Shown here in pieces: positions 1 through 48,863 of a stretch of DNA of 48,863 nucleotides. The notes under the pieces are model-generated. The model saw only the letters and a program-made list of their open reading frames with translations, searched no databases and was not told where the DNA came from. The first letter of the stretch is position 1. Each line of letters starts with the position of its first letter. The DNA comes from a virus, in IMG/VR virus record IMGVR_UViG_3300005541_000004, positions 1-48,863 of that record. One strand, written 5' to 3'. The position numbers and the translations under genes are program-made.

Positions 1-120
1 GAATACAATTCTTATCAAGACTTCGGACACGTCCAACACGACACAGACATCGTAATGTATGACTCTGCTCAATATAACTACTGCTCTTTTGATGAACTCA
101 CTCATTTCAGCGCTCACCCA
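1..120. repeat. Terminal direct repeat, left copy
   Basis: These 120 bases are identical to 48744-48863. They lie inside the large terminase gene and keep its reading frame, so the two ends join into one circle. An exact k-mer-sized overlap is what an assembler leaves when a circular or circularly permuted molecule is linearised. A true terminal repeat inside the terminase coding region would be unusual. Confidence 0.95.
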
Positions 121-1344
121 TATCATTATATGGTTGGTTCTCGTGTTCGCCCTTCCTCCTCTTTTAATATTGCTATTGTACGGAATGGGAGCAATCCTGG
201 AGGAATTGGTCAGACTTTCGTTTATAATCGTTTCGTTCGTCCGTCTGAAGATGGACACGTAGTAATAAGAGATGTTAATACAGGACTTCTTAGAATATTT
301 ATTCCAGCGAAAGCAGAGGATAATCCATATGGAATGGAATATGATCCTCTCTACGTTAAGAAGCTTGAAATACTAAAAGCGGTATCGGAGGCCGAATACA
401 AGGCGAAGAGATATGGAGACTGGCATGCGTACAAAGGAAGCGTCTTCACATCATTTCGCCCAATGCGATTTCCAGGTGAACCAGATAACGCTTTGCATGT
501 TATCGAACCTTTTACAATTCCGGAATGGTGGCCCCGTATATTGTCTATTGACTGGGGAAAGCGAGCGATGTGTTATGCAATGTGGGGAGCCGTTTCGCCA
601 AATCATAGAGTTTATGTTTACAGAGAACATGCTTGGTATGGAAGAGATATACCATTCTGGGCTAGTGAGATCAGACAGACACATGCTCAGAATGATGAAC
701 AAATCGCATACACAGTTCTATGCGGGTCTGCTTGGCAATCAAGAGGTGGAGAATTAATAGCTGACGAGTTTCAAAAATACTCTGATCTCGTTCCTTCATC
801 GAGCGAGAATACTCCGGGAACTAGAATAGCCGGATTGCAATTAGTTCATGACTTTCTACGTTGGGAGAAAAGAGAAACTTTAAAGTCTAAAGGTGAATTC
901 TACGATTTGAAGCTCTCTCAGGAGATTTATAGAAAATACGGACCAGCAGCCGTTGAGGCATATAAGAAACAATTCTATGATGAGCCTGAAGAAGAGAACT
1001 TGCCAATATTACAAATCTTCAAAACCTGTAAAGTTTTAATAGATACAATACCGATGGCAATCTATGATGAGAAGAAAATCGAAGATATTGCTGAGTTTGA
1101 GGGAGATGATCCATTAGATTGTTTACGGTATTTCAGTAAAGCTGCTATGAAATTTATTATGGGAGAAATTGGAGAGTTGAGTTTTGCTGAGAAGAAACAA
1201 GCTGTAATCTCTGATTATAATGTAGATAATGATGTTACTAGAATGTATCGGAGGATGGAAGCGATTGAGATGCACGACGCTCACACTCTTCAAGATTGTA
1301 TTCCTGTTAGCCGTCGGAGTCGATTCGCTAGAATGAGGCATTAA
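1..1344 (+). CDS. terL: Terminase large subunit, C-terminal 447 residues (gene crosses the contig join)
   Basis: This is the ATP-driven motor and nuclease that cuts concatemeric DNA and packs it into the prohead. The frame is open from base 1 and continues the start at 48393, giving a 564-aa protein, a normal length for the family. A Walker B-like SFDELTHF (Asp148/Glu149 of the full protein) is in this part. The RNase H-like nuclease domain starts at ILSIDWGKR, whose Asp (about residue 301) is the usual first metal ligand. It ends with the acidic EGDDPLDCLRYF typical of TerL C-termini. An ATG at base 55 is internal and is not the start. The next gene follows with no gap. Confidence 0.9.
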   Translation, partial: EYNSYQDFGHVQHDTDIVMYDSAQYNYCSFDELTHFSAHPYHYMVGSRVRPSSSFNIAIVRNGSNPGGIGQTFVYNRFVRPSEDGHVVIRDVNTGLLRIFIPAKAEDNPYGMEYDPLYVKKLEILKAVSEAEYKAKRYGDWHAYKGSVFTSFRPMRFPGEPDNALHVIEPFTIPEWWPRILSIDWGKRAMCYAMWGAVSPNHRVYVYREHAWYGRDIPFWASEIRQTHAQNDEQIAYTVLCGSAWQSRGGELIADEFQKYSDLVPSSSENTPGTRIAGLQLVHDFLRWEKRETLKSKGEFYDLKLSQEIYRKYGPAAVEAYKKQFYDEPEEENLPILQIFKTCKVLIDTIPMAIYDEKKIEDIAEFEGDDPLDCLRYFSKAAMKFIMGEIGELSFAEKKQAVISDYNVDNDVTRMYRRMEAIEMHDAHTLQDCIPVSRRSRFARMRH

Positions 1345-6553: not shown

Positions 6554-7807
6554 ATGCCAGGACCAGTTGTAGAATCAGTAGTTGCTGGGACTGAACTTGA
6601 AAGAGTTCTTCCCAAAGTAACTACTGTATTTGAGTCTGACGACACATTTCTAGGTAATATTAAGAAGAGAGATGTTGAGATTGTAAGTTATAGGGAAATG
6701 CGTGCTCCGATGGAATTGAGGCCAGGAGGGCGCTTTCAATACTTTAATCCCGATGGTGGAGATTTGGGTCGAGGCGGTGGTCCAACTTGGGACAAAGCCG
6801 TTGTACGTCCAGTCTTTCTATCAGAAAATATAGAGTATACTAAATTGACACAATGGAGTACTGACGATAGACGTAAATCTGTAATAAATGCTGTAAGAAG
6901 ATTGACAGCCGGTGCGACAGTAGAAATTAAAAGACAACTAGATGCTCAGTTGCAAGGTAGTGGAACTGGGCAGGTAGGAACTATTGTTTCTGTTACGACA
7001 GTATCAGGAACAGATACATATGTAATGGATTCTGCCTTTGGTGCTAGACTAGTACGATACGATCAAGTAGTCCAGATTTATGATACGACATTAAGCATCT
7101 TTCGAGGAAAAGGTGTAGTCACACTATGGGATGTTGAGAATAAACTCGTAAGCGTTACTCCATCTATTCCAGGTGCTACTGCAACAGACGTATTAGTTGT
7201 TGATGGTATTACAAATCCAACAGCACTTCCCGGCTTGTTTGGAGTATTGTATCACCATTCTAATGCTAGTACTGGTACTTGGCTAGGATATGATAGAGCA
7301 ACTACACCAGAAATTAGGTCTAATGGAGTCAATGGCGGCAACTCCGCTCTGACACTTCCATTGCCTCGACTAGCGATTAATAAGATTGGTAATAGGGTAG
7401 GAATTGACAATAACTTCGATCCTGTTGCTCGGACACATCCTTGTCAAGCACAGGCTTACGAAGAAATTGGTCAGCTAATCTCTATTATCCATAAGCAACC
7501 TAAAGATGAGTCACTTAATCTATACTTTGGTGATAATATGCAGCTTGCCGGAGCGCCCATCAAGCAGCACTTTAATTGGAATAAGACTAGAATTGATTTT
7601 ATTGTTTCTAGCATCTGGGGCAGAGCAGAGATATTGCCAATTGGCTTCTATACAAGTGATGGTAGAAGGATATTTGAGTTGAGGGGCGCATCTGGCGGCG
7701 TAGCCGCTGCTGATATATTCTATATGGTTGTTGGATTCCAGACATTCCTGTTGAATCCAGCCGCAACCGCATATATTTCTAACCTCGCCATTCCATCTGG
7801 GTACTGA
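6554..7807 (+). CDS. Major capsid protein
   Basis: This 417-aa protein follows the scaffold-like gene after 11 bases with a GAGGATTTAAACG leader. The N-terminal third has a capsid-like N-arm and E-loop region (RPGGRFQYFNPDGGDLGRGGG, residues about 55-75). Next comes a region about TVEIKRQLDAQLQGSG similar in pattern to the spine helix and following Gly loop of N4 gp56-type HK97-fold capsid proteins. Length, position and composition fit a major capsid protein. The exact family is not certain from reading alone. Confidence 0.72.
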   Translation: MPGPVVESVVAGTELERVLPKVTTVFESDDTFLGNIKKRDVEIVSYREMRAPMELRPGGRFQYFNPDGGDLGRGGGPTWDKAVVRPVFLSENIEYTKLTQWSTDDRRKSVINAVRRLTAGATVEIKRQLDAQLQGSGTGQVGTIVSVTTVSGTDTYVMDSAFGARLVRYDQVVQIYDTTLSIFRGKGVVTLWDVENKLVSVTPSIPGATATDVLVVDGITNPTALPGLFGVLYHHSNASTGTWLGYDRATTPEIRSNGVNGGNSALTLPLPRLAINKIGNRVGIDNNFDPVARTHPCQAQAYEEIGQLISIIHKQPKDESLNLYFGDNMQLAGAPIKQHFNWNKTRIDFIVSSIWGRAEILPIGFYTSDGRRIFELRGASGGVAAADIFYMVVGFQTFLLNPAATAYISNLAIPSGY

Positions 7808-9144: not shown

Positions 9145-9819
9145 ATGAGTCTTGGTTCAATTGCTGGTTCGACATCACAAGCATTGTCGGTATTGCCAGT
9201 CACAGGACGTGATTTGGCAATGGCAGATTCTGCTAATTACTACGTTGCTACTACGCCTACTCCTGGAACTGGTATTATTTCAGGAACAGCACTATCAAAC
9301 GTAGCAACTACTCCTCTACTGGTTCTATTTAATGGTGGTTTGCTAAATATCTATCCAATCTATTTGAGGCTCTCTACAACAGTAGCTAGTACTGGTGATG
9401 TTACTAATATGAATTTCTCACATAGTCTTGATCAGGGTAATAGAATGGGTGGTGCTACAAACGGCACGCAGCTAACAATTAACAATACGAATATTCTGAG
9501 CAATAGCAAGTCTTCTGCACAGATTACATATGGAGCAATTACAGGAGCCGGTGCGGCCACTGCAAACGCAAGGAATATTGGTAATGATTGGCCGCGAGTA
9601 GCTTTGATTAATATTGTTGGTGATGTATACGAATGGCAATATGGTGCTCCTATGGGTGTAGGAGTAGGAAGTACTCCTGCCACAGTGATGAATGTTTGCC
9701 GTTCGATGCCTGCTATTTGCTTGCCACCACAGAGTTCATATGTTATCGCTGTGTGGTGCGCAACTACATTTACTACTGGTTTTACTGCTGAAGTTCAATT
9801 CGCTTTCTGCGAAAAGTAA
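9145..9819 (+). CDS. Virion protein, tandem paralogue A
   Basis: This 224-aa protein is clearly homologous to the next gene. Both carry RDLA-ADSANYYVA-TPTPGTG near residues 24-45, then LFNGGLLN or VFNGGLLN, then NNTNIL and a late AICLPPQSSYV/AVVLQPQSSYV. The composition (Thr, Ala, Gly, Asn; beta-rich) suggests a surface coat or fibre protein. No domain name is certain. The two copies probably form related multimers on the virion, or one replaced an older role after duplication. Confidence 0.65.
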   Translation: MSLGSIAGSTSQALSVLPVTGRDLAMADSANYYVATTPTPGTGIISGTALSNVATTPLLVLFNGGLLNIYPIYLRLSTTVASTGDVTNMNFSHSLDQGNRMGGATNGTQLTINNTNILSNSKSSAQITYGAITGAGAATANARNIGNDWPRVALINIVGDVYEWQYGAPMGVGVGSTPATVMNVCRSMPAICLPPQSSYVIAVWCATTFTTGFTAEVQFAFCEK

Positions 9820-9833
9820 AAGGATAAAAGACA

Positions 9834-10472
9834 ATGCCTATTGGAACAAATGCTCTCAGCATCCTGAATGTAACTAATAGAGATCTAGCTATTGCTGATT
9901 CTGCTAATTATTATGTAGCAGTCACTCCTACGCCTGGTACTGGTGTTATTACAAATGCTGGTACTACCGCTGCGGCTACTACTCCATCACTAGTTGTATT
10001 CAATGGTGGATTGCTAAACGTATATCTATTGTACTTGAAACTGTCTGAAACAGTTGTTGGTGGTGGAGCTGCTGTTCATAACTTTACACATTTTGTTGAT
10101 CAGGGAAATCGCTTTACAAGCGGTGGTACTGCATTGACAATCAATAACACAAATATTCTTGCTAATGCTAAATCTAGTTCTCAGATTTCATTTGGGGCTA
10201 TTACGGCCACTGCGGCAACTTCCAATCAGAGAACAATTGCTAATGATTGGTTCCGTGCTGGTGCTGATGTTGTTGGTGATGTATATGAGTTCCATTATGG
10301 TGCTCCATTGGGAGCAAGTGTTGGTTCTCAAGTTGCTACTGTTGCTAATTTCTGTAGAGCCGTTCCTGCTGTTGTATTGCAGCCGCAAAGCTCCTACGTA
10401 TTGAATATTTGGGCTGCTACATTTACTCAGGGTATTACATTTGAAGTTCAGCTTGCATTCGCTGAAAAGTAA
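9834..10472 (+). CDS. Virion protein, tandem paralogue B
   Basis: This 212-aa protein follows paralogue A after 14 bases (ribosome site AAAGGATAAAAG). It aligns with A over nearly its whole length, with A carrying about 12 extra residues at the N-terminus. Shared landmarks are the ADSANYYVA and FNGGLLNVY segments and a C-terminus ending FEVQLAFAEK against AEVQFAFCEK in A. The role is presumably structural. Confidence 0.65.
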   Translation: MPIGTNALSILNVTNRDLAIADSANYYVAVTPTPGTGVITNAGTTAAATTPSLVVFNGGLLNVYLLYLKLSETVVGGGAAVHNFTHFVDQGNRFTSGGTALTINNTNILANAKSSSQISFGAITATAATSNQRTIANDWFRAGADVVGDVYEFHYGAPLGASVGSQVATVANFCRAVPAVVLQPQSSYVLNIWAATFTQGITFEVQLAFAEK

Positions 10473-17937: not shown

Positions 17938-18302
17938 CAAATAGAGCCTTTCGATTCGGTCCAATCGCATTAACGAATACTCTTACGACTAATCTACTAA
18001 ATCCAGCTACGTTGACTGGAGGAGTCAATTGCAATCCTACTGCTACATATATTATTCTGAGAAGAATGAATATAATTAATAAAACGTCTGTAGCAGTTAC
18101 ATTTAGCTTTTGGCTTGGAGCTACTGGAGGAAATGTTGCTGGAACAGAGGTAATAGGCTCTGGGCAGTCAATTCCAGCTAATAGTTTTTTTCCATGGAGC
18201 GGATATTTAAGATTAGATTCGACTGATTTCTTAGTTGGAGGAGCTTCTGCGAATACGTCTCTTACAATTGAAGCGGAAGGCGAGATAGGGGTGGCTGGAT
18301 AA
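17934..18302 (+). CDS. Small tail/fibre-associated beta protein
   Basis: This 122-aa protein is taken from the ATG of the ATGA junction; the frame is open 15 bases further upstream without a ribosome site. Alternating hydrophobic strands and a FFPWSGYLRL segment suggest a beta-sandwich of the kind found on tail tips or as decoration proteins. No named family is recognised. Confidence 0.55.
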   Translation: MTNRAFRFGPIALTNTLTTNLLNPATLTGGVNCNPTATYIILRRMNIINKTSVAVTFSFWLGATGGNVAGTEVIGSGQSIPANSFFPWSGYLRLDSTDFLVGGASANTSLTIEAEGEIGVAG

Positions 18303-19171
18303 TGGCTGATCAATACTTTTCTGGTCCAAATTCTGGTGGTATTGGTGGTTCTGGACCTATTTCATCATTTGGTAGTCCAGGTTCATTTGCTGGAGCCGCT
18401 AATCAACAAGCGAGTGATTATGATAAAATAATGGCAAATTATGGAAATTTAGTAGGCTCTGCTACTAACAATCCTATTACTGCCCAGACTATCTCTCCAA
18501 CTAGTGTAACTCCTCAGACTGCTCCTTTCGCGCAGAGTTCTGATGTTACCGGAAGTCTTGCTAATCTTTCTAACTTGAGTCAAACTGGTGGTTATACTGC
18601 TCAAGGAAAAGCAGATATTTTAGCTAGAGACGTGTCTCCAACTAGAGGCATTTATGCTAATGCTCAACAGAATATGGATAGACAAAGAGCACTTAGTGGA
18701 GGATACTCTCCAAGTTTTAATGCGGCATCTCTAGCTAATACACAACAAGAAGCTAACACTATTGGCGGGATAGATACAGCCGCAAACGCCGGAATTGCAC
18801 AGAACGTTGCGGCTAATCAAATACAAGCTGGAGGAATGTATTCTGGAGCTAGCGAAAATGCTCAAGCCCAGAAAACTCAAGCAGATCAGAATAATGCTAA
18901 TATAGTCAATTCTATTAATGAGAGCAATGCTAATAGGAATATGAATGCACAAGGAACTAATGCTTCAAATGCTCTAATGGCTGGATTTAATAATCGTGGT
19001 AATATTCTTTCTGGTATTGGTGGACAGGCTAATCTGTATGGGACGACTCCGGCTTTAACTAATACATTTGGAAATCAAGTCATGGCTGCTGGAGGATTAG
19101 GACAAGGACAGCAGCAATTGAATCAGCAGAAACAAAGAGATGTTCTGAGTGCAGCAGGAGGGAGTTGGTAA
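18302..19171 (+). CDS. Asn/Gln/Ala-rich protein, probable internal virion (ejection) protein
   Basis: This 289-aa protein is low in charged and aromatic residues and rich in Asn, Gln, Ala, Ser and Gly. Residues about 110-235 (GIYANAQQNMDRQRALSGGY onward) form a likely long Ala/Gln/Asn helix. It opens a run of four genes ending in a 1159-aa protein, the layout of ejection-protein clusters in podoviruses. No catalytic motif is present. Confidence 0.55.
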   Translation: MADQYFSGPNSGGIGGSGPISSFGSPGSFAGAANQQASDYDKIMANYGNLVGSATNNPITAQTISPTSVTPQTAPFAQSSDVTGSLANLSNLSQTGGYTAQGKADILARDVSPTRGIYANAQQNMDRQRALSGGYSPSFNAASLANTQQEANTIGGIDTAANAGIAQNVAANQIQAGGMYSGASENAQAQKTQADQNNANIVNSINESNANRNMNAQGTNASNALMAGFNNRGNILSGIGGQANLYGTTPALTNTFGNQVMAAGGLGQGQQQLNQQKQRDVLSAAGGSW

Positions 19172-20143
19172 ATGAGTTTTATGAATTCTCTCGCTGCTAA
19201 TTCAGGCGGTAGTATTTCTGGACAGCCTGGTCCTCCACAAGATCCAATGAATTTAGTTAATAAATTAAAAGATAGAGAAAAACAAGATTTTATGGAAAAA
19301 GCTAATTTTATGTCAGATTTATCTCTTAAACAAGATAGATTAAGAAAGCTATATGGTCTTGATGGTTCTCAGCAGCAACAAGCTCCACAAAATCAATCTG
19401 CTAGTTCTCAACAGCAAATGCTTTCTGGAATGGACCCTAATGCTCCTAAGCCTGGAGCAATACAACAGCAAGAATTAGGAATTAGACAACAACAGGCTAA
19501 TACTGAGAGTCAAAGAGTCAATCAACAGGGTCAATTAGGACAACAGGCTCAAGATGTTAAGACTAAACAAGAACAACTAAATCAACAGAAGAGTGATCAA
19601 ATTCATACTCAAAAACAGCAAGAATTAGAAGCTAAAATCAACGAATCTAATGGAAAACTAACTCAGGCTCAAGCCGCATTAGCCGCAAAGAATACTACTG
19701 CCGAACAGCAATTACAAGCTCATAAAGATCTCGCCGCGGCTGTAGAAGAGAGACATAAACTAGAATTAGCTCAGAAAGATAGTCAATTTCAGCAATTAAA
19801 AGACCAGCATCAGCAGGTTATTGATAATCTTGAATCGCAGAGAAAAGCTGGACAGAATAAGACTCAGACTCAATCTAAAGATCCAGTAACAGGAGCTATA
19901 ACAACTAATACTCGCTCTGGCAGTGCTGCACAGAATGTAATCAAGCAGAATCCTGATGGAACTCTTCATGTTAGTGGTGGTCCAACAACAGGTGAAGGAA
20001 GTCATCCTAATGGAGAATATGATATTCCAGCTAATAAACTAGGTCATTGGAATTCAATGTATGGCAGTCAAGAAGCTCCGCAACAAGATTTAGCTAGTCA
20101 ACCTGGTAGCGGTGATGCGTTTCGTATCAATCCACAAGAATAA
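19172..20143 (+). CDS. Gln-rich coiled-coil protein, probable ejection protein
   Basis: This 323-aa protein has Gln as the dominant residue. A long coiled coil spans about residues 85-235, with dense Lys/Glu/Gln heptads. The C-terminal 80 residues are Gly/Asn/Ser-rich and likely disordered. It is probably part of the set injected with DNA, or a chaperone for it. It ends in a TAATG junction with the deoxyhypusine-synthase-like gene. Confidence 0.55.
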   Translation: MSFMNSLAANSGGSISGQPGPPQDPMNLVNKLKDREKQDFMEKANFMSDLSLKQDRLRKLYGLDGSQQQQAPQNQSASSQQQMLSGMDPNAPKPGAIQQQELGIRQQQANTESQRVNQQGQLGQQAQDVKTKQEQLNQQKSDQIHTQKQQELEAKINESNGKLTQAQAALAAKNTTAEQQLQAHKDLAAAVEERHKLELAQKDSQFQQLKDQHQQVIDNLESQRKAGQNKTQTQSKDPVTGAITTNTRSGSAAQNVIKQNPDGTLHVSGGPTTGEGSHPNGEYDIPANKLGHWNSMYGSQEAPQQDLASQPGSGDAFRINPQE

Positions 20144-21135
20144 TGCTTCCTAGAGATATGAAACAGCCTATTGATGTAAAACTCGCTGGTAATATGGCTA
20201 AATTCGTACGAAGAAATTATCATCATTTCAATGCTCAAGTTCTGAAGAATGCTACAATGGCTTATAAGAAGCTATTGGATGATGGTGGCAAGATGTTTGT
20301 GTCTATGGCTGGAGCAATGTCAACAGGCCGTTTAGGCATATCGCTTGCGGCAATGATACGTAAAGGATATGTTAGCGGCTTATCAGTTACCGGAGCTAAT
20401 CTAGAAGAAGATGTATTCAATCTCGTAGCAAATAAGGATTACGTTCAAGTTCCAGATTATAGAGATATTAGTCTAGAAGATAATAAGAAGATGCTCGATA
20501 AGAAACAGAATCGTGTGACTGACGTGGCTATTCCAGCAAGTTCAATGAAAGAAGTTGAAGATATTATTATTGAGGCTTGGAAAGATGCTCAAGATCCGAG
20601 ATTCCCTCATGAGTTCCTTTGTGATATTCTTCTCTCTGGGCAATTAGAAAAATACTATCAGATTGATCCAGCTGAAAGTTGGTTACTTGCGGCTGCTGAA
20701 CTTGATATTCCAATTGTTACTCCAGGATGGGAAGATTCTACTCTTGGTAATGTCTTTGCGGCTCTAGTGCGTAAGCAGGAAGTTGAATTAGAAGTTATGA
20801 AGAGTGGTATAGAAGCAATGAATTATCTAGGAGATTGGTATCTGAAGACTAAAGAAGATAAAGGATTCTTCCAGATTGGCGGAGGAATAGCTGGAGATTT
20901 TTCAATTTGTGTTGTTCCTTTCTTAAAGCAGGATTGTGGACTCAAAAACACTAAATGGTGGGCTTATTTCTGTCAGATTAGTGATGCAGTGACTAGTTAC
21001 GGAGGCTATTCTGGAGCTACTCCAGATGAGAAGATTACTTGGGATAAATTGGGTCCTAAAACACCCAAGTTTGTAATAGAGTCAGATGCGTCAATAGTCG
21101 TTCCTCTCATATTCGACCAGATTTTGGGGCTATAA
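20143..21135 (+). CDS. Deoxyhypusine synthase-like NAD-dependent enzyme
   Basis: This 330-aa protein has the fold signature of the deoxyhypusine synthase / homospermidine synthase-like family, which uses NAD and spermidine to transfer an aminobutyl group to a lysine or polyamine. Visible landmarks are SMAGAMSTGRLG (54-65), SVTGANLEED (81-90), FQIGGGIAGDFSICVVPFLK (243-262), WAYFCQISDAVTSYGGYSG (273-291) and TPDEKITWDKL (293-303). Lys302 lines up with the catalytic lysine of the WGK motif; here the Gly is Asp. The length fits the bacterial family. It sits between two presumed ejection-protein genes with TAATG junctions at both ends, so it is made with late proteins. The substrate is not predictable from sequence. 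Confidence 0.85.
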   Translation: MLPRDMKQPIDVKLAGNMAKFVRRNYHHFNAQVLKNATMAYKKLLDDGGKMFVSMAGAMSTGRLGISLAAMIRKGYVSGLSVTGANLEEDVFNLVANKDYVQVPDYRDISLEDNKKMLDKKQNRVTDVAIPASSMKEVEDIIIEAWKDAQDPRFPHEFLCDILLSGQLEKYYQIDPAESWLLAAAELDIPIVTPGWEDSTLGNVFAALVRKQEVELEVMKSGIEAMNYLGDWYLKTKEDKGFFQIGGGIAGDFSICVVPFLKQDCGLKNTKWWAYFCQISDAVTSYGGYSGATPDEKITWDKLGPKTPKFVIESDASIVVPLIFDQILGL

Positions 21136-24100
21136 TGTCATTTCCTTTTCGGCAGCCAGTTAATACAGAAGATTCTCCTGATGAATCAGCGGAGCTGCCT
21201 GAATATGCTAGTCCTCATAAAGAACAGGCTGAATTACCTGATTACGCCAAGCCTCATAAAGCAGAAGCTAAGCCTCGATCATTTAAGCCGGAAGGTGCTC
21301 AGAAATTCTATGAGGCTACGAAAGGTTTAGTTGAGTCTGGAAAGAAAGCTTGGGACTGGGCATCTAAACCATTAACTGAAGCTCCTACTAAAGCTGCTGA
21401 AGCAATCAGTCAAAGGATTAATCCTCGAAGTGAGACTGAAGGAGCTAGGGGAGTTGGTTCTGCATTTGTAGAGGGATTAGGCCATGCAGTTTCCGGCTTA
21501 TCCTCTCCTGTTAATTTAGCTCTTACAGCAGCAACAGGCGGTGCTGGAGCATTAGAATCTTCTCTTCCTAGAGTAGCTCAAGGATTGCGTACAGGAGCTA
21601 GAGCACTATCAGTTCCAGTAGCGGCTGAAGGTGGAAGAGATGTATATGAAGGTGTTAAAGAGGGTGATATTCCTAAAGCATTATCTGGAGGATTAGAATT
21701 GGCTGGTGGTGCTCTAGGAATGAGAGGAGAGCCTTCAGTTAAAGAACATCCATCAGTGAGACAGAGTAGAGAGATTCCTTATAGAATGGAAGAGCAAGAG
21801 AAAGCTGCTAGTGGTCCCAATACTGGTATTACTCCAGCTAAGAAAAAAGAAAATGAGCCTCTGGCAATTGAAACTAAACCAGTAGTAGAAGAGGCTAAGC
21901 CAGTAGAAGAAGCTAAACCTGCGAAGCAGAATCCTTTTAAGAAGAAGATTGATACTTCTCAAGCTGATAAAATTGCAGCAGCTACTAAAGCTGTTGTAGA
22001 CCCAGAATCTCCTCTTCCTACTAGAAGTCCTAATCTTAGACAAGAATTTCAAGAACCTCCTGTTAAACAGCCTACTAAACCAGCATTAAGTCAAGAAGAA
22101 GATGATGCTGCTTTCATGAAATATCAGAGAGAGAATCCTAGACCAGTTGGCCCTCTAGAACCTTCTATTAAACAGGCTCAATATAGTCATAATAATCCAG
22201 AATTAGGCGGGCGGCAATATGATATCGAAGGTGGTTCTACTGTATCAGAAAAAGAAGCTGTTAAACGAGGATATGAACTTCCGGAATCTCCAACTGTAGA
22301 GGAGGCGAGTCAAGAGCCTAGATTGAGTGGAGCACAACAAAGAGAAAAGGCTATTTCTGCTAGAGATGCTCATCAGATTCCAGAATATGCTAAGCCTCAC
22401 GCTGAATTGCCAGATGTGACTCAAGGATTTGGTGGTTCCGGTCATCCAGATAGTCCTGATTATGTTTCTAAAGTTCTTCAGTCTGCTGGTAATGGAGAGC
22501 CTGGACTAGCAGTGGAATCAAAAGAAGGATTCCAGCATGTAGTCTATCGTGGAAAAGATGGCAATCCAATAGCTGCTGCTAAGGTTGTTACAGACTCTTC
22601 TGGAAAGAGTATGATACAAGACCTAGCAGCAGATAAATCTAAAGGACTACTCACAGGTAGAGCAATGAAAGCTCTAGCCGGAAAGCTACAAGAATTAAAA
22701 GCTACGGAACCAGCAGGAACAATTAGTCCTGATGCTACTAATTTTCTGAATAGGATGAAGGCTAGAGCTAATCCTATTGCTGATCAATTAAAGTCGTATT
22801 CTGAACCTCCTAGAAAGTCGCTATTCGAGGATGAATCCGGCTCTCTTAATCTAGATTCTATTAAGAATTTCATGAGTTCAATTTATCAGAAGATGTCTGG
22901 AGGCTCGGCAGTTAAAGATGTAGTAGAAGAATCAAAGAGGACTGTTCCAGAAATAGATAAGACTCCAGGCGGAAAGATAGTTGGAGCAGTAACTAAGCTC
23001 CTATCAGCATTAGATGATGCTAAAGGTTCAGCAGTAGAACAATCTCAAATGCTAAAAGTTGAAAGAGCTAGAAGATTCTCAGCGTTTGCGGCTACTAAAG
23101 GAGAAGGAACAGAATGGGCTAAAAGTGCTATGTCTAAGTTGAAAGGAGAATATGAGAAAGTTCCTGGGCAGAGATTAGGGTTATCAGAAGAGGATGTGAG
23201 TTCTTTACACGATGCTATTAAAGCCGCACCCATTAGTGTACCAGAAAAAGCTCAAAGTATTACATCTCTAGGAAAGTTACTTACTGGAATATCTGTTCCT
23301 ACTCGCTCTGAATTGGCAACATTAGATAACGTATTCGGTAATGGTTTTGGTAATAAAATCGTAGAAATGCACGGAGGAATCGGTGCTGTTGGAATAAAGC
23401 TAGCTAAACTCGGAGCTACTGCTAAATCAATGGAGAATAGCATATCTTTAGCAGCGCCGCTAAGACATGGAATCGGATTAGCTTACAGAAAAGAGTTCTA
23501 TCCAGCATTTAAGGATATGTTCAAGTTCTATGGAAATAAGGAATACTCCGATTCTTCTATGCAAGCAATAAGAGAACATCCTAATTATGATCTTTTTAGA
23601 GAATCTGGAGGATTTCTATCTAAAGCTGGAAGTGCTCAAAGTGCAGAAGAAGAATTTCTTGATTCTTATGTTAGAAATATTCCACGTGCTACCGGCATTC
23701 CTCAAATTGTCGGAGCTAGTCAGAGAGGATATACTGGATTCTTAAATAAACTAAGATTCGATACATTCAACTCTATGACAGAACAGGCTAAGAAATTGGG
23801 AGTTGACTTATCGACGACAGTTGGTGAAGGAGCAGAGAAACAGGTTGTAGCGAGTAAAGAGGCTAAAGCAATAGCTAAATATATTAATACTGCTACTGGA
23901 AGAGGAGATTTACCTTTTGGATTGAATAAAATCACTCAAGAATTAAATACTGTTCTCTGGTCTCCTAGAATGATGGCTTCTCGATTGACTATGTTTACTA
24001 ATCCTAAGATTTACACTGATTTGCCTAAAGGCATGAGACTAGAAGGATTGAAATCTCTGCTAGGCATTGCGGCTCTTGGAACTACTATTGACACTCTAGG

Positions 24101-24614
24101 CGCTTACGGCGGTGCTAAAGTGAGCACGAATATATTGAGTAGTGATGCCGGAAAGAGCCGTCTTGGTACTAAACTAATTGATCCTTGGGGTGGATTTCAG
24201 CAATATGTTGTTGGTGCTGCAAGATTTCTAGCTGGCAAAACGGACAGCAATACTCCAACGAGCCGATTGGACATTGCCGGACGATTTCTAGCCAACAAAG
24301 AGTCTCCACTTGCTAGCCTAGCGCATACGTTGCTAACGGCTAAGAAGTTTACTGGAAACTCTCTAGACCCAACGACAGCAGGTAATTTCACGACTGAATA
24401 CGGACAGAAGACTAATATTCAATCTGAGGTTGGAAAGAGATTTGTTCCTATCTTCATACAAGATATTCATGACTTAGCAACTAGCGACCCAAAATGGTCT
24501 GATAATATTGGATTATCAGCCATAATGGGAGTCGCTAGTCTCGCCGGCATGTCACAATCCTATCCTGAGAAGAAGCCTAAGCTCGGAATGGGAAAGATGA
24601 GACTCAAACCTTAA
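21135..24614 (+). CDS. 1159-aa presumed ejection / internal virion protein
   Basis: This is the longest protein of the phage and the last in the rightward block. The N-terminus has ELPEYASPHK and ELPDYAKPHK repeats (residues about 20-41), and a related QIPEYAKPHAELPD near residue 414. A Gly/Ala-rich segment at about 95-200 could insert into membranes. Residues about 440-530 (strands, then SKGLLTGRAMKALAGKLQ) look like a small alpha/beta domain, possibly GNAT-like, but this is tentative. The C-terminal half is helical (about 740-1130). No lysozyme or protease motif is clear. Its stop overlaps that of the convergent leftward gene. Confidence 0.6.
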   Translation: MSFPFRQPVNTEDSPDESAELPEYASPHKEQAELPDYAKPHKAEAKPRSFKPEGAQKFYEATKGLVESGKKAWDWASKPLTEAPTKAAEAISQRINPRSETEGARGVGSAFVEGLGHAVSGLSSPVNLALTAATGGAGALESSLPRVAQGLRTGARALSVPVAAEGGRDVYEGVKEGDIPKALSGGLELAGGALGMRGEPSVKEHPSVRQSREIPYRMEEQEKAASGPNTGITPAKKKENEPLAIETKPVVEEAKPVEEAKPAKQNPFKKKIDTSQADKIAAATKAVVDPESPLPTRSPNLRQEFQEPPVKQPTKPALSQEEDDAAFMKYQRENPRPVGPLEPSIKQAQYSHNNPELGGRQYDIEGGSTVSEKEAVKRGYELPESPTVEEASQEPRLSGAQQREKAISARDAHQIPEYAKPHAELPDVTQGFGGSGHPDSPDYVSKVLQSAGNGEPGLAVESKEGFQHVVYRGKDGNPIAAAKVVTDSSGKSMIQDLAADKSKGLLTGRAMKALAGKLQELKATEPAGTISPDATNFLNRMKARANPIADQLKSYSEPPRKSLFEDESGSLNLDSIKNFMSSIYQKMSGGSAVKDVVEESKRTVPEIDKTPGGKIVGAVTKLLSALDDAKGSAVEQSQMLKVERARRFSAFAATKGEGTEWAKSAMSKLKGEYEKVPGQRLGLSEEDVSSLHDAIKAAPISVPEKAQSITSLGKLLTGISVPTRSELATLDNVFGNGFGNKIVEMHGGIGAVGIKLAKLGATAKSMENSISLAAPLRHGIGLAYRKEFYPAFKDMFKFYGNKEYSDSSMQAIREHPNYDLFRESGGFLSKAGSAQSAEEEFLDSYVRNIPRATGIPQIVGASQRGYTGFLNKLRFDTFNSMTEQAKKLGVDLSTTVGEGAEKQVVASKEAKAIAKYINTATGRGDLPFGLNKITQELNTVLWSPRMMASRLTMFTNPKIYTDLPKGMRLEGLKSLLGIAALGTTIDTLGAYGGAKVSTNILSSDAGKSRLGTKLIDPWGGFQQYVVGAARFLAGKTDSNTPTSRLDIAGRFLANKESPLASLAHTLLTAKKFTGNSLDPTTAGNFTTEYGQKTNIQSEVGKRFVPIFIQDIHDLATSDPKWSDNIGLSAIMGVASLAGMSQSYPEKKPKLGMGKMRLKP

Positions 24615-27147: not shown

Positions 27148-27364
27148 CTTTCCCCCTTTCTACTGCGAGCTTATAAATCTTCTCGAATACATCTGGAGCC
27201 GAATTCTCACCTGCTGTTCCTACTACCAATACATGAAAATTCTTCTTAAACATTAGTTCTGTCATTGTATTGGGATAGAACCAACAAGTCTTATCCCAAT
27301 TTTGGGACTTGGCGAATCTATAGGCTTCGAGTTCATTTCCTGCTAGAATGCAAATTTTGGTCAC
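27134..27364 (-). CDS. Small Rossmann-like hypothetical protein
   Basis: This 76-aa protein starts at GTG (GTGA overlap with the HNH gene). The pattern MTKICILAGNELEAYRFAKS, then FHVLVVGTAGENSAPDVFE is that of a small alpha/beta fold with two parallel strands. Similar short proteins occur in other phage replication operons, with no known role. Confidence 0.6.
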   Translation of the reverse strand: MTKICILAGNELEAYRFAKSQNWDKTCWFYPNTMTELMFKKNFHVLVVGTAGENSAPDVFEKIYKLAVERGKVGRF

Positions 27365-27822
27365 CCCTTATTTTTCCTCCTTCTCTCTTTCTGTTGTTCA
27401 TTATGACAAGAGGAACAATAACGTTGCCATATAATTTTACCATCTCTTTTTCTTCTCCTAAGTCTATATGGCCCTTTACATTTAGGGCAGCACTCTTTTC
27501 TAGCATTATTATGAACTCCATCTCTAACTTGATCTTTTACATTGTCTGATATAGTTCCTGGACGTAGATGGTCAATAAAGAAGCATCTTTTATCACATCC
27601 TGTACTATGCCTAGCATCCCAAGACTGATCGTGATAATCTAGATTATAATGAATGGCTACTACTAATCGATGTAATTGATAAACTATCCCCTGTATCATT
27701 ATAGGAGTGTATCTATTCTCAGTCGGCCTATTAATGGGAAGATGACAACCATTCTCGTTTATTATTTTTGGTATCATTCTTACCCAATCTCTATTAGCAT
27801 CTGATAACTTCATATGTTTCAT
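27361..27822 (-). CDS. HNH homing-type endonuclease (copy 1)
   Basis: This is a 153-aa protein. The HNH core reads ARHSTGCDKRC, IDHLRPGTISDNVKDQ, with paired Cys and a His-x-x-x-x-Gly-x-x-x-x-Asp-Asn pattern, as in free-standing HNH homing nucleases. A C-terminal zinc ribbon (CPKCKG, then CSSC) and a basic tail follow. It is inserted directly after the polymerase gene (ATGA overlap) and is paralogous to the protein at 32300. HNH genes of this type spread by cutting near their own insertion site in related phages. Confidence 0.8.
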   Translation of the reverse strand: MKHMKLSDANRDWVRMIPKIINENGCHLPINRPTENRYTPIMIQGIVYQLHRLVVAIHYNLDYHDQSWDARHSTGCDKRCFFIDHLRPGTISDNVKDQVRDGVHNNARKECCPKCKGPYRLRRRKRDGKIIWQRYCSSCHNEQQKERRRKNKG

Positions 27823-30281
27823 ATCTTCACTTTGTGAAAGTCTCCGTAATGAGTGTCACTCACCTCGATGTCTGCTGGGATTTTCAATCTATAATCTCTC
27901 TTTAGAGAGCATTGATTGAAGTCTATTTCCTTCTGCATATTCTCCCTTAATAGCCTTGCGAATGGTTCCCAGTTATTCTTAGGAGCTTCAATAACTAAAG
28001 CATCATGAGCTTCGACTAAAAATGTAGCTTCTCCATTAAATTCTCTATCTGAGTTGACTGCGGCATTTTGAACTAAATGAGCCACAGTTCGTTGCGGAAT
28101 GTTTGCATATGCTTCCTTATAAATTTCATCATCCATTCTGGCATTAAAAATTCTGATACCAAAAAAAGGATCAATAAGCATACGAGTGGAATCAATTGCA
28201 TCCTTAATGTCTTGATGAAACTTGTTTTTGATTTTAGGGCTAGCTGCATGAAAGAGTTCAAGTAGTTTCCCTGCTTTCCACTCGCTTATTTCCATAGGAA
28301 TATCATATTTCTGTGCATTTATATTAAACTCATTCATAAGTCTATGCTTGCCCATATTGTAATTTCCTGCATGTCTAATCATCTTGCCGGTGAACCTCTC
28401 TGGTCCATCCTTCGGAAGATTATCTACTATCTCATCTTTAAAATCTACTGATAACTCTAGCTTACTTGTATATCCGAACATGAGAGCCGCAGTGCGCCTA
28501 TGAATGTCTACTCTATCGAATGCTTCTAATAGTTTCCAATCTTCTGCTAATACTGCCACGACACGAGCCTCTGCTTGACTTGCATCAACTTGGACGAATA
28601 TCATTCCTTCTCGTGGAATAAACATCGAACGAATATCTTTAGCCAACCGACCATGTTTGGATATTGTATGGAAAGCTAATCCGATCTTCTTGGGCCTTAG
28701 CGGCTTCTTTAATATTCCTGTTGATGACCTGCAAGTTTCAGTAGCTATAATGTTGTATGCTGATTTACAAGTTAAGTCGTAGTCTGGACTAAAGTTAATC
28801 TGTCTACTTTTCTGGTCGCGGATTCTCCTCTCTTCTAAGACATCTTTTAGAATCTCTTTCTGTTCTTTTTTCTTACAAGAACTTAATAATGCAATAATTG
28901 AATCTTCTGATGTTGGGTCTCGTTTTCTAATCTTAAATTTGAGGATTCTATATAACAAATTGAAGACTTGCGGGTATGACTTCACATTTATATCATCTCC
29001 TATAGCAGTAGTCAATCTCTCATGAACAATATTCTGCATCTCAGTATATTTCTTCTTGAGTTCCTTCTGCTTCTCTAAGTCTATCCTAAAGCCCATATTT
29101 TGCATCTTTAGATAGAACTTATGCCGAGGCATGATAAAATTGTAATAATAGTCTCTTAGCGGCACACTGTATTTTTCAGACAGCTCATCTAAATCATTTT
29201 CTTGTTCTTCATCTACTTCGAATTCGACTGCGCAATCTCTAGCATTGTATGTAAGAAGTTTATCAAATTTGACTTTTCCGAGTTTAAATTCTTTACCATC
29301 ATCTTTGTAATAGGGTTCTCTAGTCCATAAACTGCTAACCACGCACAATCGCTTGTCTGGAAGTTCTGGAAAGATAACTCTAGTTTTAATGAGTGTGTCG
29401 CTGTAGACTCGTGGGCATTTGAAACCGATAAGACTAAGTTTATATTCGTCGTACATGAAGTTATGACCAATGATTCTGACTCTTCTGAGCTGCTCATCAA
29501 TCATCCTCCAGCATTCATCCAATTCATTATCGCCCATATCAGTTAGTTTGGTCTGTCCAATTTGCCTTAGAAGTGGAATAGATATCGCATGAGAGCGATT
29601 AAATGAGAAGCCTACGCACACCGGGACACAATTAATAGACTCAATGTCCACTGCGGCTTTATCCAGCTTCTCATATTCTCTAAAGAATCGATGCAATTCA
29701 AGACTATTGTGAATCACTTGGAGGTGTCTTTCTGGCAAAACTATTTCAGAACTTAATGACTCCTCAGCGGCTCTAATAATATCTGCCTGTATTAATTTAG
29801 TATAAACCCAACTCAATCCTCCACTCGTATCGCCTTCGACTCCATGAGAGAAGAGAGCTGCTGGATGAATAGTTGGAACACATTTTGTTATTCCATCTTT
29901 TGCAAGCAATATAGAGCCGCGATAGTTGAGAATACCAGTGACGGCACAAACAGCCTGTAAGGCAACATCACCAACGGCAAGAATACAATTAGGATGAAGG
30001 ACGTTAATTTCATTTGTCCAAAGCTCTTCGATACTCTTTTCTAGGCTAACGTCGATAAGATGCAGTTTTTTGAGATCATTGTAAGGAGGTCTGTATTTGA
30101 TAACGTTAGTGATATAACAGTCAGAGCGACGTATTCCAGCTTTGAATAGAAAGTCATCAAGAAGCTGACCAGTAGGACCGACAAATGGAATACCTTGCTC
30201 ATCCTCATTCTTTCCGGGACTTTCTCCTATGATCATTAATTTTGGCTCTACGGAGCCTATTCCTCCAACATAATTAGGCAC
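27819..30281 (-). CDS. polA: UDG-like domain fused to family A DNA polymerase
   Basis: This 820-aa protein carries three modules. Residues about 10-175 form a family 4-like uracil-DNA glycosylase domain (IIGESPGKNEDEQGIPFVG at 17-35, TIHPAAL at 137-143); the N-terminal CxxC of iron-sulphur UDGs is absent. Residues about 205-360 form a 3'-5' exonuclease (Asp212/Glu214, Asn274/Asp278, Tyr345/Asp349). Residues about 380-820 form the polymerase, with motif A FVQVDASQAEAR (Asp566), motif B in KMIRHAGNYNMGKHRL (633-647), and motif C EAHDALVIE (His759-Asp760). All catalytic positions look intact. It starts at GTG (TAGTG junction). SPO1-type phage polymerases have a similar UDG-like N-terminus. Confidence 0.88.
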   Translation of the reverse strand: MPNYVGGIGSVEPKLMIIGESPGKNEDEQGIPFVGPTGQLLDDFLFKAGIRRSDCYITNVIKYRPPYNDLKKLHLIDVSLEKSIEELWTNEINVLHPNCILAVGDVALQAVCAVTGILNYRGSILLAKDGITKCVPTIHPAALFSHGVEGDTSGGLSWVYTKLIQADIIRAAEESLSSEIVLPERHLQVIHNSLELHRFFREYEKLDKAAVDIESINCVPVCVGFSFNRSHAISIPLLRQIGQTKLTDMGDNELDECWRMIDEQLRRVRIIGHNFMYDEYKLSLIGFKCPRVYSDTLIKTRVIFPELPDKRLCVVSSLWTREPYYKDDGKEFKLGKVKFDKLLTYNARDCAVEFEVDEEQENDLDELSEKYSVPLRDYYYNFIMPRHKFYLKMQNMGFRIDLEKQKELKKKYTEMQNIVHERLTTAIGDDINVKSYPQVFNLLYRILKFKIRKRDPTSEDSIIALLSSCKKKEQKEILKDVLEERRIRDQKSRQINFSPDYDLTCKSAYNIIATETCRSSTGILKKPLRPKKIGLAFHTISKHGRLAKDIRSMFIPREGMIFVQVDASQAEARVVAVLAEDWKLLEAFDRVDIHRRTAALMFGYTSKLELSVDFKDEIVDNLPKDGPERFTGKMIRHAGNYNMGKHRLMNEFNINAQKYDIPMEISEWKAGKLLELFHAASPKIKNKFHQDIKDAIDSTRMLIDPFFGIRIFNARMDDEIYKEAYANIPQRTVAHLVQNAAVNSDREFNGEATFLVEAHDALVIEAPKNNWEPFARLLRENMQKEIDFNQCSLKRDYRLKIPADIEVSDTHYGDFHKVKI

Positions 30282-31412: not shown

Positions 31413-32303
31413 TCAAACTTTCCAATTGGTTGCTGGTGGTTGTCGATTAAAAGGATTAACTTTAGATGCTTGCGGCTCTTCTTGTTGTATTGGTTTGTTT
31501 TCAACTCCTCTCGATTTATCTATGAGTTCTTTCCACACTTGATAAAATAACTTCCCAGTAATATCAAACTCTTTTACAAAATCTCCTAACAGGGGGCTCT
31601 TGGCATATTCATCTCCTACTGCTTCTGTGTTTACGATGTATTTTTTACTTGCTCCTTTCTCCGAATAGTCACTTTGCTGTGAGAAATGATAAATTTCAGT
31701 GAAACTTCCTGGAATGATACTAGCAACTTTACTACCGTAGCTCACTATAGAATTTGAACGAGTAACTCTCATTGAATTGCCAGAGCCGGAAAGTGATACA
31801 GTTGCAAGCGGGTGAGCTGTCCATATCGTATGGCATGGCAGTTTCCGGCTTAAATCAATACACTGACTAACCATGCTGGTTTCTACCTTGTACTCATCCC
31901 AATCTGGTAATACATCTTTTATCTTCTTTGCCATCTTTCTATCTTTACCGAAATTCAATGACCAATTCACACATGCCGCAGTCATGAATGTAATTGAATC
32001 GTTGATAACTGCAAAATATCTGCAATCATCGCGCATGTCAATTAACTTGTTTAGATAAGCGTTAGCATTCTCTGAGCTGTAGACATCATATTCGATGTTA
32101 TCTAAAATCTTTTTTGCCAATGAGCCAAAGCGTTTTTCCGTGAAGAATGTAGTTAATTCGACTGGAGAAGACTTATCCCAATATGATAAGTATACAGGTC
32201 CTTCAACAGCGAATGATGCTGCGGCAATTGTCTTACCAAATCCTGGACTAGATTTGAATAGAAAGGATATGTTTCTACTTGGAGATATTGAGGATGCTTT
32301 CAA
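31413..32303 (-). CDS. Sak4-like RecA-fold ATPase (recombinase)
   Basis: This is a 296-aa protein. Walker A is SSPGFGKT (residues about 17-24) and the Walker B-like strand is YFAVINDSITF (about 97-107). Size, fold and the neighbouring SSB-like gene match Sak4 single-strand annealing proteins of phages. It would promote annealing or recombination during replication. It starts at TTG, overlapping the HNH stop (TTGA), with an AAGGAAAAAG ribosome site. The C-terminus ends with NPFNRQPPATNWKV, similar to a motif in the 239-aa protein at 39178. Confidence 0.7.
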   Translation of the reverse strand: MKASSISPSRNISFLFKSSPGFGKTIAAASFAVEGPVYLSYWDKSSPVELTTFFTEKRFGSLAKKILDNIEYDVYSSENANAYLNKLIDMRDDCRYFAVINDSITFMTAACVNWSLNFGKDRKMAKKIKDVLPDWDEYKVETSMVSQCIDLSRKLPCHTIWTAHPLATVSLSGSGNSMRVTRSNSIVSYGSKVASIIPGSFTEIYHFSQQSDYSEKGASKKYIVNTEAVGDEYAKSPLLGDFVKEFDITGKLFYQVWKELIDKSRGVENKPIQQEEPQASKVNPFNRQPPATNWKV

Positions 32304-32776
32304 TTTCTTTTTCCTTTTGCTCTTCTAGTTCTTCTTTGTTCTTCTGCGCAACTAAAACATCTTCTCTCAACACTCCTCTTTTTCATTCCATATCTATCTC
32401 TTTTTCTTATAACATTTCTAAATGGTCCTCCACATCTGGGACATACTTCTTTTCTAGCATTTACATCTGTACCATCTCTTATTCTATCCTTTGCATTATC
32501 CGAATCACTACCAGGTTCTATATGTTCTGGATTAAAACAAAACTCATTACTACATTTATGTCTAGCTACAATTTTATAGTTCATATAATCAATACTATTC
32601 CATAAGCACATGACTAACCTACTTAATACATATCTACAACCATTTATCATGACTTGGGTATGTCTATCATAGGCAGAGGCATATTTGTATTTCCAACACT
32701 CATTATCAACTATAAATTTATCTAGAGATAATATATAATCTTTATCTATCTTACCTTTATATATCTTCCTCGCCAT
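32300..32776 (-). CDS. HNH homing-type endonuclease (copy 2)
   Basis: This 158-aa protein has ARHKCSNEFCFNPEHIEPGS followed by DNAKDRIRDG, a full HNH core. The C-terminal zinc ribbon (CPRCGG, then CFSC) and an Arg/Lys tail align with copy 1 at 27361. The start lies 20 bases inside the preceding gene and its stop overlaps the TTG start of the Sak4-like gene. The two copies flank recombination and polymerase genes, as homing nucleases often do. Confidence 0.8.
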   Translation of the reverse strand: MARKIYKGKIDKDYILSLDKFIVDNECWKYKYASAYDRHTQVMINGCRYVLSRLVMCLWNSIDYMNYKIVARHKCSNEFCFNPEHIEPGSDSDNAKDRIRDGTDVNARKEVCPRCGGPFRNVIRKRDRYGMKKRSVERRCFSCAEEQRRTRRAKGKRN

Positions 32777-48412: not shown

Positions 48413-48863
48413 CGGCATAATTTCTTCTGATCCAGGAAATGGATTCTTTGAGGATTTCGTTTCTGAGAAGAATATTAAACCACATCCAGTTCAGGAAGCA
48501 CTCTTATCACTTCCAGATCAAATCTTTGAGGCACTTTATGGAGGAGCCGCCTACGGCGGGAAGAGTTGGATTCTTACTCTATTACCTTTATTCAGAGGGT
48601 TCTATAAGTTTAGAGGATACAAAGGTATTATCTTTCGAAGAAAGTTCCCTGATCTTGAAAGAGAAATTATTCGACTTAGCAAGGAATATTATCCAAAAAC
48701 AGGAGCAAAATACAATGAGCAAAAGCACTCCTGGGAATGGCCAGAATACAATTCTTATCAAGACTTCGGACACGTCCAACACGACACAGACATCGTAATG
48801 TATGACTCTGCTCAATATAACTACTGCTCTTTTGATGAACTCACTCATTTCAGCGCTCACCCA
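48393..48863 (+). CDS. terL: Terminase large subunit, N-terminal part (continues at base 1)
   Basis: The ATG at 48393 opens the frame that continues through the join; bases 48744 onward repeat 1-120. The Walker A motif is GGAAYGGKS (residues 50-58) and RRKFPDLE follows, as in phage TerL ATPase domains. With the part at 1-1344 the whole protein has 564 residues. The start lies within the previous small gene. Confidence 0.9.
   Translation, partial: MGISVANGIISSDPGNGFFEDFVSEKNIKPHPVQEALLSLPDQIFEALYGGAAYGGKSWILTLLPLFRGFYKFRGYKGIIFRRKFPDLEREIIRLSKEYYPKTGAKYNEQKHSWEWPEYNSYQDFGHVQHDTDIVMYDSAQYNYCSFDELTHFSAHP
48744..48863. repeat. Terminal direct repeat, right copy
   Basis: These are the same 120 bases as 1-120. 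Removing one copy yields the 48,743-bp circle. The repeat is inside terL, so it is best read as assembly overlap of a circular or permuted genome. Confidence 0.95.

Follow-up and report, generated by a model that had tools for sequence, protein, structure and literature searches.

The window (the whole stretch of DNA analysed, 48,863 nucleotides) is the IMG/VR virus record IMGVR_UViG_3300005541_000004. It carries a 120-bp direct terminal repeat (positions 1–120 and 48744–48863), so the genome is probably complete. On its packaging and structural strand lies a gene of the deoxyhypusine synthase (DHS) family, joined by stop–start overlaps to the genes on either side, as follows.

55..1344, + strand: terminase large subunit homolog (phrog_979, E 7e-8), marking the packaging/structural strand
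6554..7807, + strand: major capsid protein (phrog_14242, E 1.3e-8), same strand and block
18302..19171, + strand: conserved virion-module gene, two upstream of the enzyme gene (synteny in L001–L010 and L115)
19172..20143, + strand: Gln-rich gene directly upstream, 323 aa, presumed internal or ejection-type protein (synteny)
20141..20145, + strand: TAATG stop–start overlap of the upstream gene and the enzyme gene (junction GAATAATGCTTC; stop 20141–20143, start 20143)
20143..21135, + strand: DHS-family (SpeY-like) gene, 330 aa (Pfam, fold, conserved residues, dN/dS)
20143..20190, + strand: N-terminal extension, about the first 15 codons, MLPRDMKQPIDVKLAG (alignment, start-site survey)
21133..21137, + strand: TAATG stop–start overlap of the enzyme gene and the large downstream gene (junction CTATAATGTCA; stop 21133–21135, start 21135)
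21135..24614, + strand: large downstream gene, 1159 aa, presumed polyvalent, possibly ejected (homologs with GHKL/RIIA-like (L009) and ParB-like (L005) domains)

The initial annotation had proposed an open reading frame translationally coupled on both sides, and both TAATG overlaps were confirmed, with a product of 330 aa. It had also placed the gene in an 'ejection-protein cluster'. The neighbours are indeed of virion type, but the label is positional, as the flanking window proteins gave no confident family match: the 18302-like gene matched nothing in PHROGs or the PDB, the gene at 19172..20143 matched no family, lineage-gene alignments A2 and A3 searched against the PDB and PHROGs returned no confident family, and alignment A4 searched against PHROGs returned nothing beyond accessory domains that vary and belong to single members. 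The product of 21135..24614 has a conserved C-terminal half, for which the AF2 model (pLDDT 48) was too poor for a structure search, and a variable N-terminal half. In the N-termini of this protein in the window and in L163, L169 and L180 we observed repeated WxPPxYAxP-type motifs (PEYASP and PDYAKP in the window), which are perhaps binding or packaging signals.

Elsewhere in the window, on the minus strand, we noted an SNF2-type helicase gene (36177–38777) with an intein-like insert that has LAGLIDADG/homing endonuclease matches, a family A DNA polymerase with a fused uracil-DNA glycosylase domain (27819–30281) and homologs throughout the lineage, and two similar small ORFs that are HNH endonuclease-like (27361–27822 and 32300–32776).

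A DHS-family enzyme with a conserved active site

The 330-aa product matched Pfam PF01916 (DS) over residues 28–325 (E 4.8e-40; 138.1 bits against a cut-off of 27), and phmmer against the PDB found 8put_A, a 'probable deoxyhypusine synthase' (E 5.9e-14). With an AF2 model of the protein (pLDDT 87, pTM 0.88), DHS entries were found throughout the Foldseek matches listed from the PDB (best E 2.4e-16, TM about 0.72–0.76) and made up 49 of the 50 among the matches listed by VIA-align, the best being human DHS (Z 27.6, 287 residues, 3.0 Å); the BFVD structure library gave no match at E ≤ 0.001. The PF01916 and fold matches bear out the DHS-type family named in the initial annotation, and the motifs GANLEED, GGGIAGD, WAYFCQISD and DEKITWDK that it had listed are all present.

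In the alignment to human DHS, K302 pairs with human K329, in agreement with the earlier assignment of Lys302 as the catalytic lysine, and E296, W300, D198, E89, GGG246–248 and D315 pair with human E323, W327, D238, E137, G282–284 and D342, which together with K329 are the catalytic lysine and NAD-site residues of DHS structures. The structure comparison proposed at that stage returned DHS, with the lysine and NAD-site residues retained in the alignment. K302, E296, W300, D198, E89, GGG and D315 are kept across the phage copies and the best 80 of at least 580 bacterial copies, with one alignment gap and an occasional Gly-to-Ala change at the first glycine of GGG246–248 among phage and bacterial copies.

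Within the window lineage, dN/dS for the enzyme gene is 0.03–0.14 (with dS near saturation), and the gene is under strong purifying selection; its GC content and codon usage fit the neighbouring genes. The enzyme gene is real, and apparently intact and functional. We rejected a chance motif match as an account of the DHS landmarks, pseudogene status of 20143–21135, and recent acquisition of the gene, the last because codon usage fits the neighbours. The WGK-to-WDK change beside the lysine, earlier thought notable, is real but says little, at a position that is variable (D, G, N, A, Q, E or H among phage copies, and G in 76 of the best 80 of at least 580 bacterial matches), and WDK was rejected as a sign of special function.

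Substrate-site differences and bacterial relatives

The window enzyme has the fold (Z 27.6) and the lysine and NAD-site residues in common with eukaryotic and archaeal DHS, but differs from them in that the KHH motif and both spermidine-site aspartates are replaced. The aspartates D243 and D316 of human DHS, substrate-site residues singled out as different in CdmS (PMC10981699), become N203 and Y289, and KHH becomes GDF (251–253), in the window enzyme and across its subfamily; the partner of H288 in the human alignment is unsure because of an alignment gap. The score against the DHS model TIGR00321 (dhys), 91.9 bits, misses the curated cut-off of 304.25. The window enzyme is not a typical DHS.

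CdmS of Thermus thermophilus, which carries out agmatine homocoupling, is likewise a DHS-family enzyme without the two aspartates of human DHS (PMC10981699), and we count as a further likeness that relatives in the window subfamily adjoin arginine decarboxylase and agmatinase genes. The two differ in the residues at these positions (N203/Y289 in the window enzyme, F204/L286 in CdmS), and the match to the CdmS model NF002699 (agmatine homocoupling; 68.9 bits) misses its curated cut-off of 500. The top NCBIfam model for the window enzyme was PRK00770, 'homospermidine biosynthesis protein' (112.8 bits against a cut-off of 450), as it was for nine of ten further members scored, L094 being the exception, with scores of 99–131 bits for members and 99–121 for bacterial relatives that all lie far under the 450-bit cut-off.

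The subfamily is common in bacteria, with at least 580 confirmed matches, and the best 80 of these, which are 53–61% identical to the window enzyme, come from Bacteroidota, Bdellovibrionota, Verrucomicrobiota, Acidobacteriota and others. At 22 of these 80 loci the fetched flank contains a gene resembling those for arginine decarboxylase, agmatinase or agmatine deiminase, and several bacterial loci show an operon-like ADC–SpeB–SpeY order; the neighbour labels come from BLAST to representatives named by eye, with Pfam confirmation only for the agmatinase of phage contig L012. Genes for SpeY cluster with a speD-type decarboxylase and with speB or aguA/aguB genes (PMC10407285). Bacterial SpeY (Anabaena), a DHS-homolog homospermidine synthase (PMC9992855, PMC10407285), shares with the window enzyme the fold, the catalytic lysine, the polyamine-gene neighbours of its relatives and PRK00770, whereas the window enzyme scores below the PRK00770 cut-off, is phage-borne in a virion-gene module and has no pathway partner in its genome.

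Because of the polyamine-gene neighbours and the PRK00770 top model, the best reading of the subfamily is SpeY-like; the candidate substrates are putrescine, agmatine or spermidine. Against the SpeY assignment stand the PRK00770 scores, far below the cut-off in phage and bacterial members alike; among members of this exact subfamily, none with an assayed activity was found. Near the active site, Y286 is replaced by Glu in four relatives and N203 by Gln in two, so specificity may vary.

As the closest relatives form a bacterial subfamily that occurs with polyamine genes, the obvious function would be homospermidine-type synthesis, not protein modification. The initial annotation had rightly pointed to polyamine chemistry; it had missed the link to the bacterial polyamine-gene subfamily, and had also suggested modification of EF-P or a virion protein. 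The DHS fold, the catalytic lysine and the adjoining virion-type genes would suit transfer of an aminobutyl group onto a lysine in host EF-P or in a virion protein, but the whole subfamily has other residues in place of D243, D316 and KHH of human DHS, the true-DHS models score far under cut-off, relatives travel with polyamine genes, and an EF-P domain is absent from the 29 DHS-phage records searched. The suggestion is thus unsupported, and we consider protein modification highly improbable.

Phage settings and an optional cassette

Neither SpeY nor DHS had a homolog in the virus and phage genomes covered by a 2023 survey of polyamine enzymes (PMC9992855, PNAS). An annotated phage collection searched with tblastn gave no match for the enzyme either, and therefore no context from named phages. 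IMG/VR searches found 26 loci when the single protein was the query and 55 when the alignment was, on about 54 contigs. The DHS family, reported absent in phages, extends the published list of phage polyamine enzymes; viral SpeD, HSS and ODC genes are also predicted to change host polyamines, HSS being non-homologous to the window enzyme (PMC9992855).

Gene contexts were taken from ORF lists, many by eye. Virion-module settings comprise the window lineage, L011, L136–L139, L013/L026/L119 (where the enzyme gene precedes an SU10-type capsid gene, PF17236 in L013), L156/L157 and the crAss-like L015, L118 and L122. Metabolic or unclear settings comprise the large-phage contigs L124, L126–L132 and L151, together with L012, L144, L154 and the marine L016–L024. 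An agmatinase gene (PF00491, E 2.5e-66) overlaps the enzyme gene by 4 bases in L012, and an arginase-family gene adjoins it in L144. AdoMet_dc (SpeD) is present in 8 of 33 DHS-phage records, and in L154, L124, L128, L130 and L131 it lies 59 bp to 2.9 kb from the enzyme gene.

This pairing in other phages with SpeD-like and agmatinase genes, likely substrate suppliers, points to synthesis. It argues against an enzyme whose main role is to drain or alter a host polyamine (spermidine, putrescine or agmatine) and so disable the host or a defence system, with its product incidental; such a drain would fit a lone enzyme obliged to use host substrate and an optional gene, and we regard it as highly improbable. 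As a separate observation, the SpeD homologs within 3 kb of the enzyme gene in L124, L128, L130, L131 and L154 may form a two-step polyamine module with it. In the marine T4-like L016–L024 the enzyme gene overlaps a gene of about 200 aa with a DHHHDVYYPGW motif, possibly a remote arginase-type partner; a Pfam search of that gene gave no match.

A careful tree grouped 18 virion-module copies with two bacterial rows (support 97/79), and a one-clade constraint on all 18 was not rejected (AU p 0.957); a first quick tree had split these copies, but the constrained tree scored higher, the quick search having missed a better tree. The virion-module copies thus appear to form a largely phage-specific group, in a tree whose confidence is limited by long branches. 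The crAss-like L118/L122/L125 branch is separate and is placed, like most large-phage copies, with Bacteroidota, so the gene was acquired by phages more than once.

The gene order 18302-like, 19172-like, enzyme, 21135-like was found in the window, L001–L010 and L115, where the contig reaches, and a similar, more divergent order in L025/L150, a single contig with a 127-base overlap between its ends. With another gene of the lineage as query, we found at least six relatives without the enzyme (L163, L169, L171, L174, L175 and L180), in which the upstream stop meets the downstream start directly, mostly as TAATG; a PF01916 search of their records was negative. On a tree of two other genes, the pattern of presence and absence needs at least three changes, of which only one is forced by well-supported branches. 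The enzyme gene is an optional cassette and, with at least six relatives lacking it, not a required virion part. The initial annotation had named absence in close relatives as a check on its idea of a virion role, and these enzyme-free relatives weaken that idea. In L025 we also observed a homing-endonuclease-like ORF (9574–10011) precisely at the cassette junction, where it separates the enzyme gene from its upstream neighbour.

Proposed late polyamine synthesis and the ejected-cargo alternative

We consider it probable that the optional cassette, expressed late, encodes a SpeY-type, NAD-dependent enzyme that converts host diamines into homospermidine or the corresponding bis-guanidino compound. 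The reaction would start with NAD-dependent dehydrogenation of spermidine or of a diamine (putrescine or agmatine), an imine would form on K302, and the aminobutyl group would pass to a second diamine to give homospermidine or the bis-guanidino product. No arginase, SpeD or PLP decarboxylase was found in the window genome; with no other polyamine gene found there, the phage would draw on host substrates, and this need for host substrate in a genome without a pathway partner counts against the SpeY reading. Having been inserted as an optional cassette into a virion-gene module, the gene would be expressed late, with head, tail and ejection-type proteins, during DNA packaging and peak late translation, and the product may neutralise packaged DNA or sustain translation. 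Putrescinyl-thymine-type DNA modification was considered as an alternative, and no supporting gene was seen in the window ORF list.

The virion-gene setting would also accommodate an enzyme that is packaged in the virion via its N-terminal tail, is ejected with the DNA beside a polyvalent-type protein and alters host polyamines in the first minutes of infection. We think this unlikely, and likewise the broader version in which the phage-specific SpeY-type branch is ejected cargo, tail-loaded beside polyvalent anti-defence proteins and reprogramming host polyamines at DNA entry. We retain ejected cargo as a minority reading, since the copies of several lineages lie in virion modules, one of them beside a DarB-like protein. 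In the window lineage the slot is fixed between two presumed ejection-type genes, and it is similar in L011 and in L136–L139; in L139 the next gene encodes a DarB-like giant protein (phrog_10089, E 2e-251). The case from gene placement is positional for L011, L139 and the window lineage alike, and of these L139 alone has a DarB-like neighbour. In P1, DarB is a virion protein packaged via an N-terminal sequence of fewer than 30 residues (PMC9024508), and DarB- and ParB-type domains occur in injected polyvalent proteins (PMC5512222); homologs of the 21135..24614 product carry RIIA/GHKL-like or ParB-like domains. The enzyme gene therefore adjoins a protein of this kind in L139 and a presumed one in the window, but the window enzyme is single-domain and unfused, and the main text of PMC5512222 does not mention deoxyhypusine synthase.

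The N-terminal extension of the window enzyme, whose residues 1–10 have a pLDDT of 45 in the AF2 model, is missing from most bacterial and metabolic-context phage copies. Before GAMST the virion-module copies have a median of 56–57.5 residues by two start rules and 53 by a third, compared with 43 in metabolic-context phage copies, and both this length and the unrejected single clade of the 18 virion-module copies would favour packaging. Against it, N-termini of 50 residues or more before GAMST also occur in bacteria (26–36% of copies, according to the start rule), the virion-module copies are not phylogenetically independent, six relatives do without the enzyme gene, fusion to a polyvalent protein was not observed, and late operons often carry non-virion cargo genes. 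To our knowledge, no phage particle has been shown to deliver a polyamine enzyme.

Together, these observations point to an unusual, recurrent genomic setting for a SpeY-like polyamine enzyme, for which we infer the product, timing and location. We found one systematic survey of polyamine enzymes in viruses (PMC9992855); the family, reported absent there, is present here in several phage lineages, on about 54 IMG/VR contigs. Two settings recur: in larger phages the gene lies next to genes of the polyamine pathway, and in virion-gene modules it stands alone. The second setting raises the question of whether homospermidine is made during DNA packaging or the particle carries the enzyme. Ready-made comparisons are offered by natural relatives that have or lack the enzyme at one exact slot.
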